Part shown: one piece after another, positions 32,420-34,275 of the stretch
Layout: each line of letters begins with the position of its first letter
Numbering within the stretch: position 1 is the stretch's first letter
Program-made: the position numbers and the translations under genes
Notes under the pieces: model-generated
What the model saw: only the letters and a program-made list of their open reading frames with translations
Told to the model about the DNA's origin: nothing
Databases searched by the model: none
Assembly (NCBI RefSeq): GCF_000691865.1
Contig: NZ_JMIO01000063.1
Span: 1 to 34,275 of the forward strand
Direction of reading: 5' to 3'
From: Methanoculleus sp. MH98A
Lineage (GTDB): Archaea > Halobacteriota > Methanomicrobia > Methanomicrobiales > Methanoculleaceae
DNA length: 34,275 nucleotides

Positions 32420-32590
32420 GGCGGTAGAGCATCGGGAGAAACCTGACGGCCAGACCCGGGTTGCGACGAAGCCTGAGAGACCTCAGTCGTTCCGGGCTTG
32501 TGCGGCGGGTGAATGCGTTAGATAGTTGCCCTGTCGAGGATCCTCTGGTGGAAGTATCCGTGCACGGAAGATACGAAGCATCTTCCTGAC

Positions 32591-32615
32591 CGGCACAACC
32601 CTCTGGGTTGTGCCG
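32591..32615. repeat. Perfect 11-bp hairpin with TCT loop
   Basis: CGGCACAACCC at 32591-32601 pairs with GGGTTGTGCCG at 32605-32615 around a 3-nt loop. No T-run follows, so it is not a standard terminator. Confidence 0.65.
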
Positions 32616-32737
32616 TGTCATCCTCACACCTGTTGGCCGCGTTCTTCCCGATTTGTCCCCTTTTACCCTGTAAGACGAAGGGGATCGCGACCGGCTTGAT
32701 TTGATGGCGTTGAGGTATGAGATACCGGTGATCGAAC

Positions 32738-32747
32738 CTGATATATA
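32738..32747 (+). promoter_or_regulatory. TATA box of the toxin-antitoxin module
   Basis: A TGATATATA element lies 24-33 nt upstream of the ATG at 32771, the best-placed TATA-like sequence in this region. Confidence 0.55.
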
Positions 32748-32772
32748 CTACTGTGGTGGTACACGGTAGTAT
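32745..32772. promoter_or_regulatory. Candidate operator dyad of the toxin-antitoxin module
   Basis: ATACTACTGTG at 32745-32755 and CACGGTAGTAT at 32762-32772 pair at 10 of 11 positions (the exception is T opposite G) around a 6-base spacer. The dyad touches the TATA box on one side and covers the start codon on the other. This is where an autorepressing antitoxin would block transcription. Confidence 0.55.
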
Positions 32773-33061
32773 GTCGGAGATGACATCAATTAAGATCGCA
32801 ACAGGGGTAAAGGATCGACTCAACCATCTCAAGATACATCCCCGTGAGACTTACAGCGATCTCATCTCCAGGCTGGCCTCCCGGGCGCAAGTAGAGGTGC
32901 CCCCATGGCAAATTCCTCTTATTCATGTCAGGATCAATGGCGTCATCCGGGAACTCAAGCACCCTATCGAGATCTCGGCTGAGATGGATGAAGGGGAATA
33001 TATCCTGTACAATCACGAGTACCGACTACTGGTCGTCGCCCCGGATCTCTCTGAAGGTTGA
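32771..33061 (+). CDS. RHH/VapB-like antitoxin candidate with beta-rich C-terminus
   Basis: 96 aa. The first 40 residues (TSIKIATGVKDRLNHLKIHP, then RETYSDLISRLA) match the DNA-binding N-terminus of VapB-like/RHH antitoxins of methanogens. It resembles the orphan at 26741-26979, which has the same RET(Y/F)xDxIxRL block. Where that protein has an acidic helical tail, this one has a strand-rich tail (IPLIHVRINGVIRELKHPIE, EYILYNHEYRLLVV). The start at 32771 follows TATA box and dyad; an upstream in-frame codon at 32753 is inside the dyad region. Its stop TGA overlaps a TTG start of the next small gene. Toxin partnership is inferred from position. Confidence 0.7.
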   Translation: MSEMTSIKIATGVKDRLNHLKIHPRETYSDLISRLASRAQVEVPPWQIPLIHVRINGVIRELKHPIEISAEMDEGEYILYNHEYRLLVVAPDLSEG

Positions 33062-33186
33062 AGGACATTATCGACGAGTTTGAGGAAAACTGGAACGATT
33101 TCGTTCTGCAGGATGAGAGTGCTTTACTTGGAGGTGCTCGCGACCTGAGGAGGAAACTCATCGCACTCGTACCCGGAGAGGTCTGA
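33058..33186 (+). CDS. 42-aa acidic small ORF inside the toxin-antitoxin module
   Basis: A TTG at 33058 overlaps the preceding stop as TTGA and opens a 42-codon frame that ends 2 nt before the HicA-like gene. The peptide starts KDIIDEFEENWNDFVLQDES and ends GGARDLRRKLIALVPGEV, an acidic amphipathic helix followed by a basic one. It fills the gap between its neighbours exactly, and its frame has no internal stop. I do not recognise the family. It could be a separate antitoxin or linker peptide, or the remnant C-terminal part of the upstream protein. Start codon TTG is unverified. Confidence 0.5.
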   Translation: MKDIIDEFEENWNDFVLQDESALLGGARDLRRKLIALVPGEV

Positions 33187-33188
33187 TC

Positions 33189-33464
33189 GTGCCTCGAAAA
33201 AACAAGGCTATCGTGCGCCGCCTCATGAAGAAGGGGTTTGATGCCAGGATGTCAAAGCACATCAAACTGGTATTCATGTACAACGGTTGCGACACAGGGA
33301 TCCGTACATGGGTTTCCCATGGCACAAAGGAGATTAGCGACCGGCTGCTTTCTCGTATGGCGGAACAACTCAATCTCTCCCGGCAGCAATTCCTTGATCT
33401 CATCGACTGCCGACTCGATGAAGCGGGGTTGGTTGCAGTATATAAGGAGATGCATCTTTTGTGA
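33189..33464 (+). CDS. HicA-like toxin candidate
   Basis: 91 aa. The pattern IVRRLMKKGFDARMSKHIKL, then VFMYNGCDTGIRTWVSHGTKEI, matches the small HicA-like (dsRBD-like fold) proteins with a G-F...H-x-x-F core and an S-H-G-T-K-E-I loop. The C-terminal part MAEQLNLSRQQFLDLIDC plus the following helix is typical of the longer archaeal variants. The GTG at 33189 has GAGAGGT upstream. HicA toxins are mRNA interferases, and their usual partner is HicB, which is not seen here; the upstream genes are RHH-like. Function as a toxin is inferred. Its stop codon is the exact point where the truncated hepT begins. Confidence 0.65.
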   Translation: MPRKNKAIVRRLMKKGFDARMSKHIKLVFMYNGCDTGIRTWVSHGTKEISDRLLSRMAEQLNLSRQQFLDLIDCRLDEAGLVAVYKEMHLL

Positions 33465-33573
33465 TGCCGGACGGATCTGCCGGGTCGGGGAGGTGCTTTT
33501 TGACCATATCGACGCTCTCGGTCATCTCCTGGAGTTTGATACGGATTGCCGTATCCCGGACCTTGCGCGTCAC
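33465..33573 (-). pseudogene. Truncated HEPN toxin gene (hepT-like), N-terminal 36 codons only
   Basis: A GTG at 33573 overlaps the stop of the nucleotidyltransferase gene (GTGA). It opens with TRKVRDTAIRIKLQEMTESV and DMVKKHLPD, the normal N-terminus of HepT/DUF86 HEPN toxins. The family resemblance ends around codon 36, at the convergent HicA-like gene's stop codon. The frame then runs antisense through that gene to a stop at 33400. The catalytic R-x4-6-H motif of HEPN RNases, normally about residue 100, is absent. The gene is dead as a toxin. Confidence 0.7.
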
Positions 33574-33956
33574 GCCATCGCCTCCTTGCCGATGTAGTCG
33601 TACAACCGGTGCTTAAAATCGTCGAATTCCCGGATCGTCCGGTACGCGACATCGTAGAGAAACCGCTCGTCGGGACAGTAGACTACCTTTCCGCGGAGGA
33701 CTTCCGTCCGGACATAGAGCGGCAGAAAAGAGAAGATCTGGATGTCGTAGCGGTCGTCGGCGAGTTCGGAGAGCGCTGCAAACCGGAATCGGGCTGCCTC
33801 CTCGCGGCCGGCGTCGTAGTAGATGCAGAGATCGATGTCGGAACCCTCTCTCGCCCGCCCTTCGGCAACGGAGCCGTAGAGGATGATGAAGCGGATCTTC
33901 TCGAACCCCTCGACGGTCTTGAGCCGCTCAAGTGCGTGCCGGACAAAATGATTCAC
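33570..33956 (-). CDS. MNT-type minimal nucleotidyltransferase (MntA-like antitoxin)
   Basis: 128 aa. The nucleotidyltransferase signature IILYGSVAEGRAREGSDIDL gives the GS-x10-DxD motif, and ISYTRFDIQ-type catalysis is echoed by RYDIQIF with the third Asp. In MNT-HEPN systems the MNT protein AMPylates and neutralises the HEPN toxin encoded just downstream. Here that partner is truncated, leaving this gene an orphan. The GTG at 33956 has GGTGA six bases upstream. The C-terminal helix (REFDDFKHRLYDYIGKEAM) is complete. Confidence 0.88.
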   Translation of the reverse strand: MNHFVRHALERLKTVEGFEKIRFIILYGSVAEGRAREGSDIDLCIYYDAGREEAARFRFAALSELADDRYDIQIFSFLPLYVRTEVLRGKVVYCPDERFLYDVAYRTIREFDDFKHRLYDYIGKEAMA

Positions 33957-34153: not shown

Positions 34154-34275
34154 CTACCTGGTGAGCCGGCTCCATTCCTCACGGGATATGCCCGCCTGCC
34201 GGAGGATGCGCACGAGCAGGTCGACGCCGATCTCTGACCTGTGTGGGTTTGGGATGGTTAGAACAAGATCTTCTT
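34154..34275 (-). CDS. hicA: HicA family toxin (YcfA-like mRNA interferase), C-terminal part at window edge
   Basis: The final 40 codons of a minus-strand gene that runs off the right end. The peptide ends DLVLTIPNPHRSEIGVDLLV-R-I-L-R-Q-A-G-I-S-R-E-E-W-S-R-L, the classic HicA ending (TIPxHxxxxxGTLxxILRQAGIS). The catalytic His region would be at the missing N-terminus. Its HicB partner is not in the window. It differs from the HicA-like protein at 33189, which lacks the ILRQAGIS ending. Confidence 0.8.
   Translation of the reverse strand, partial: EDLVLTIPNPHRSEIGVDLLVRILRQAGISREEWSRLTR

Follow-up and report, generated by a model that had tools for sequence, protein, structure and literature searches.

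The stretch of Methanoculleus sp. MH98A DNA analysed here (the window; 34,275 nucleotides) carries at 32738-33464 a compact, plus-strand gene module, the features of which are listed in Table 1. A first-pass annotation, made from the letters only, had described this module as a toxin-antitoxin system of three co-directional genes, coding for an RHH-like protein, a 42-aa peptide and a HicA-like toxin, preceded by a TATA box and a dyad that spans the start codon. The coordinates of the three frames, of the TTGA overlap (33058-33061) and 2-nt gap (33187-33188) that join them, and of the TATA box (TATATA) were all verified, and the dyad is real (10 of 11 pairs). The module is indeed lower in GC (0.52) than its neighbours (0.60-0.70). 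The count of three separate genes did not stand, as the first two frames are a single gene in all intact relatives.

Table 1. Features of the module and of its surroundings (positions in the window)
Feature	Position	Strand	Remarks
Transferred tract	32421-33550		about 99-100% identity to genome G033; no counterpart in the closest relatives, G008 and G009
Archaeal TATA box, TATATA	32742-32747	+	24-29 nt upstream of the ATG; same position in most RHH-type loci
Predicted operator (dyad)	32745-32772	+	half-sites TACTACT (32746-32752), GGTGGTA (32755-32761) and GGTAGTA (32765-32771)
hicB-like antitoxin gene, frame broken in the window	32771-33186	+	138 aa in relatives; RHH/DUF7557 at aa 4-37, HicB-like core at about aa 48-135
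First antitoxin fragment (RHH and beta part of the core)	32771-33061	+	96 aa; gene 1 of the first-pass annotation
Frame break	33055-33057	+	GG in the window, GGG in the nearest relative (alignment to L002 of G033)
Second antitoxin fragment (helical C-terminus)	33058-33186	+	42 aa, TTG start; joined to the first fragment in one frame in every close relative
hicA-like toxin gene, intact	33189-33464	+	91 aa, GTG start; conserved H24, T40, S43 and H44
HEPN remnant	33471-33573	-	first ~30 codons left; full gene in G008 (L117)
MNT gene, intact	33570-33956	-	left whole beside the HEPN remnant

In the relatives with a fused antitoxin gene (L002-L008, L018, L020, L021 and L028), frames 1 and 2 form one uninterrupted gene of about 138 codons, read from a conserved ATG; over all close relatives its length is 138-144 codons. 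Over 781 nt, the window differs from its nearest relative, L002 of G033, at only two positions, namely one substitution and one absent G, the latter sitting in GAAGGGTTGAAGG, at about 33055. The TTG "start" of the 42-aa frame is an ordinary Leu codon within the fused gene, and the 42 codons are kept as the C-terminal third of the antitoxin, where most variation falls on third codon positions when read in the fused frame. Since the two frames are continuous in the relatives, the 42-aa frame is the antitoxin C-terminus rather than an adaptor; the module thus has two genes, and the small middle gene is an antitoxin tail cut off by one absent base. Conservation of the 42-codon frame, on which the three-gene reading depended, was found at the amino-acid level, but only as part of the fused antitoxin. 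When co-occurrence of the trio was looked for across other genomes, no trio was found, which refutes the trio as a conserved unit. A split at the window's TTGA site was absent from every other genome examined, and intact relatives are fused there. Other copies are broken or degraded at other sites (L019, L053 and L066) or survive as fragments (L024, L025, L027, L031 and L032); because the broken copies differ in their break site, there is no conserved split. Programmed -1 frameshifting as a means of joining the frames was set aside, as GAA GGT TGA contains no canonical slippery site by eye and the relatives need none.

The HicA-like nature of the downstream protein, proposed at first from its fold pattern, was borne out by several profile comparisons. 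Ten of 15 family members match the Pfam HicA model (PF07927), the best at 1.4e-4 and below the 27-bit cut-off; the window toxin alone gives no HicA match in Pfam. Compared with a profile of three canonical HicAs, the family reached an hhalign probability of 96.4% and a score of 50.2, vs at most 14.1 in 30 column shuffles. With an HMM built from canonical HicAs only (34 training sequences, none from the family of the window toxin), the family comes directly after the canonical HicAs in a ranking of 8433 ORFs, and most of its matches span the full length. The most conserved residues are H24 (51/52), T40, S43 (52/52) and H44 (49/52); in the L022 toxin a D replaces the conserved His. The GSH motif of HicA supplies a catalytic His (PMC11594946), and the His residues of the G-S-H and VPxH motifs have counterparts here in H24 and H44, with a register uncertain by one residue. 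These profiles and residues identify the downstream protein as a divergent HicA. Profile searches of the PDB returned chance matches only (e.g., an apolipoprotein coiled-coil) and no solved structure by sequence, and AlphaFold gave unusable models for the toxin (pLDDT 56) and for the antitoxin (pLDDT 42), the alignments being too shallow. No PIN domain was found in the toxin, and VapBC or another PIN pair was rejected for want of such a match. A further toxin of this family, at about 1372-1725 of L052 on the minus strand, carries ~24 extra residues close to the conserved His motif, the reading frame being good apart from that.

The upstream protein combines two parts. Its N-terminus (aa 4-37) matches DUF7557 with a score above the cut-off and shows, as read from the sequence, the RHH-type succession beta-helix-helix, in agreement with the RHH/VapB-like N-terminus noted earlier, while the similarity to VapB is weak. 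Over its last 85-90 residues it aligns with canonical HicB at a moderate profile score (hhalign score 28.2, probability 77%; decoys at most 11.8). On this evidence, an RHH domain at the N-terminus precedes a HicB-like antitoxin core in this protein. The "strand-rich tail" that had appeared foreign to a VapB is explained as the beta part of the HicB-like core, the 42 residues supplying its helices. It follows that the HicA has a partner of the ordinary HicB type; the pairing described as unusual is therefore unusual only in that the RHH domain lies at the other end. A classical HicB carries its DNA-binding domain at the C-terminus, whereas here RHH/DUF7557 is N-terminal. The partial RNase H core adjoining hicA, another trait of HicB, is present at the sequence level.

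An antitoxin core, with whatever N-terminus, lies directly upstream of the toxin in 51 of the 52 loci with a full-length toxin, and the remaining one sits at a contig end; the last gene is thus not a solitary one, and the toxin-antitoxin assignment is strongly supported for a pair. A relative of the toxin is carried by 18 of 40 genomes in the family, 44 of 150 in the order and 43 of 295 sampled from the phylum. Outside the phylum they were seen in a cyanobacterium, a planctomycete and a Geminocystis plasmid; the relative on this small cyanobacterial plasmid (L079, pGM3709_06) is annotated only as a hypothetical protein and lies near a tyrosine recombinase. Degraded copies of the toxin gene occur in Methanoculleus and a sister genus (L025, L027, L031 and L032). 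No relative was found in the viral contigs scanned, and a phage origin was dismissed on that ground.

The N-termini attached to the core include RHH/DUF7557 (~45 aa), another RHH-like domain (L057-L060 and L072), a ~255-aa half and other short ones. A tree of the toxins groups the RHH/DUF7557 loci in a single clade (99/93; recovered in all 200 bootstrap trees) nested within the toxins of long HicBs, the deeper forks being weakly supported. By this tree, the ~255-aa N-terminal half of HicB was replaced by RHH once. The loci with a different RHH-like N-terminus (L057, L058, L059, L060 and L072) belong to the same toxin family and are perhaps a second, independent domain exchange; this clade has another promoter motif, ATTATC/GATAAT by eye.

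The dyad belongs to a predicted operator that is kept over several genera. Two or three half-sites, TAYYACY, RGTRGTA and RGTRGT-ATG, at -25, -16 and -6, were found in 12 of 13 RHH-type loci. The 13 loci contain 31 half-sites, vs a mean of 2.15 and a maximum of 8 in shuffled sequences, a test inflated by sequence kinship and by definition of the motif on the same loci; the positions of the half-sites are also preserved between families. The long-HicB loci (n = 16) have 0 or 1. With 31 half-sites against a shuffle maximum of 8, the dyad is more than chance, and the predicted operator between the TATA box and the ATG is conserved in RHH-type loci only. Given the distance of the TATA box from the ATG, the transcript probably begins at the ATG or close to it and is probably leaderless.

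Among published systems, Class 8 hicBA fits the module in both toxin and antitoxin core. According to Gerdes 2024 (PMC10865869), the HicA of this class has ~95 aa; its HicB is 331-356 aa long, places the HicB fold at residues 255-342 and contains no DNA-binding domain that could be recognised. The hicBA order, the toxin longer than canonical (91 aa here, ~95 aa in Class 8) and the confinement of the HicB fold to the C-terminal 85-90 residues are shared. The long-HicB loci found here (331-364 aa) match Class 8 so described, and it is to their toxins that the window toxin is most closely related. Unlike Class 8, however, the HicB here has 138-148 aa (138 aa with RHH for the module itself) rather than 331-356, lacks the N-terminal and the lysyl-tRNA-synthetase-like middle domains, and has an RHH DNA-binding domain. 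Class 4 hicAB (HicB with C-terminal RHH) likewise unites RHH, HicB core and HicA toxin, but in reversed gene order, with RHH at the opposite terminus and without the divergent toxin lineage of the window. Class 5 hicBA (HicB with N-terminal Phd/YefM) shares the hicBA order and an N-terminal DNA-binding domain, and differs in having Phd/YefM in place of RHH and not the longer toxin type. The N-terminal RHH-like domain is common to VapB antitoxins and DUF7557 (PF02697 and PF24434), whereas a VapC PIN toxin is missing here and the C-terminal part of the antitoxin is HicB-like. A HicB with N-terminal RHH in hicBA order is absent from the 14 classes described in PMC10865869, and no mention of DUF7557 was found in the literature searched.

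The module was most likely acquired recently. It is 99.7% identical to the module of another species (G033), with which the flanks share ~92%. Upstream of the tract, the sequence shares 97-98% identity with G008 and G009, as against ~92% with G033, and at the corresponding place in G008 and G009 a HicBA module is absent; instead, G008 (L117) has a complete HEPN gene beside the MNT gene. The near-identity of the tract to G033, its absence from G008 and G009 and the HEPN remnant therefore indicate a recent transfer between Methanoculleus species. Most likely, the HicBA pair arrived by recombination and in doing so removed the HEPN toxin partner of a HEPN-MNT pair. A chimeric contig is a possible source of the same picture, but would need two joins. 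Also on the minus strand, at 34157-34275, a canonical HicA gene (weak match to PF07927) is cut by the window end; its full frame is seen at 3361-3600 of L117.

Taken together, the module is very probably a bicistronic HicBA-like operon encoding a type II toxin-antitoxin system, probably autorepressed and leaderless, and frame-broken in this copy. The intact antitoxin (138 aa) would dimerise through its N-terminal RHH domain on the half-sites TAYYACY/RGTRGTA, and the bound dimer may cover the core promoter and shut out TBP, TFB and RNA polymerase, resulting in autorepression. Its C-terminal HicB-like core would mask the active face of the toxin, a predicted ribonuclease of the dsRBD fold with His24 as catalytic residue; on loss of the antitoxin, the freed toxin would cleave RNA and arrest growth. 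The divergence from canonical HicA leaves some room for an RHH regulator paired with a HicA-like RNA-binding protein that is no toxin. This is unlikely, given the two-gene linkage and the conserved His of active-site type with its SH motif; moreover, the patchy distribution, the transfer, the degraded copies and the toxin-antitoxin neighbours all suit a toxin-antitoxin module.

For the broken frame itself, an assembly error is slightly favoured: the genome is a draft of 306 contigs, and a single absent G is a common type of error. The toxin gene is intact, its DNA identical to the G033 copy, and no second antitoxin of the same kind was found in the window genome; a real break in a live module should therefore be costly. 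A true, very recent one-base deletion, leaving a decaying module with an antitoxin that no longer works fully, is the somewhat less probable account. In its favour, apart from the absent G no uncompensated indel was seen to break a coding frame over the best-aligned 6.5 kb shared with G033, and other copies in the genus are degraded elsewhere in their sequence (L019, L024, L025, L027, L031 and L032). Against it stand the draft state of the assembly and the frequency of such errors, the counter-selection that a free, active toxin should face, and a genome without a spare antitoxin. The window copy would thus be either an assembly error or a module just beginning to decay. A genuine three-gene module, in which the 42-aa product serves as adaptor or second antitoxin, is very improbable: the window does show three open, closely spaced frames, and TTGA could permit re-initiation, but the split recurs in no other genome, and in all relatives the 42 residues align as the antitoxin C-terminus, with the TTG as a Leu codon. 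It is equally improbable that the deletion is real and that the two pieces, made separately via re-initiation at TTGA, still assemble on the toxin as a newly arisen split HicB.

Gerdes (PMC10865869) raises the question of what regulates hicBA operons of the Class 8 type, given that these have no DNA-binding domain. The RHH lineage offers one evolutionary answer, in which an RHH domain took the place of the large N-terminal half of HicB in a single event, and the loci that carry it have in common a predicted operator of up to three half-sites in the promoter. The module thus offers a testable case of modular antitoxin regulation in methanogens and, at the same time, appears to be a recently transferred toxin-antitoxin pair that overwrote the toxin of another such pair.
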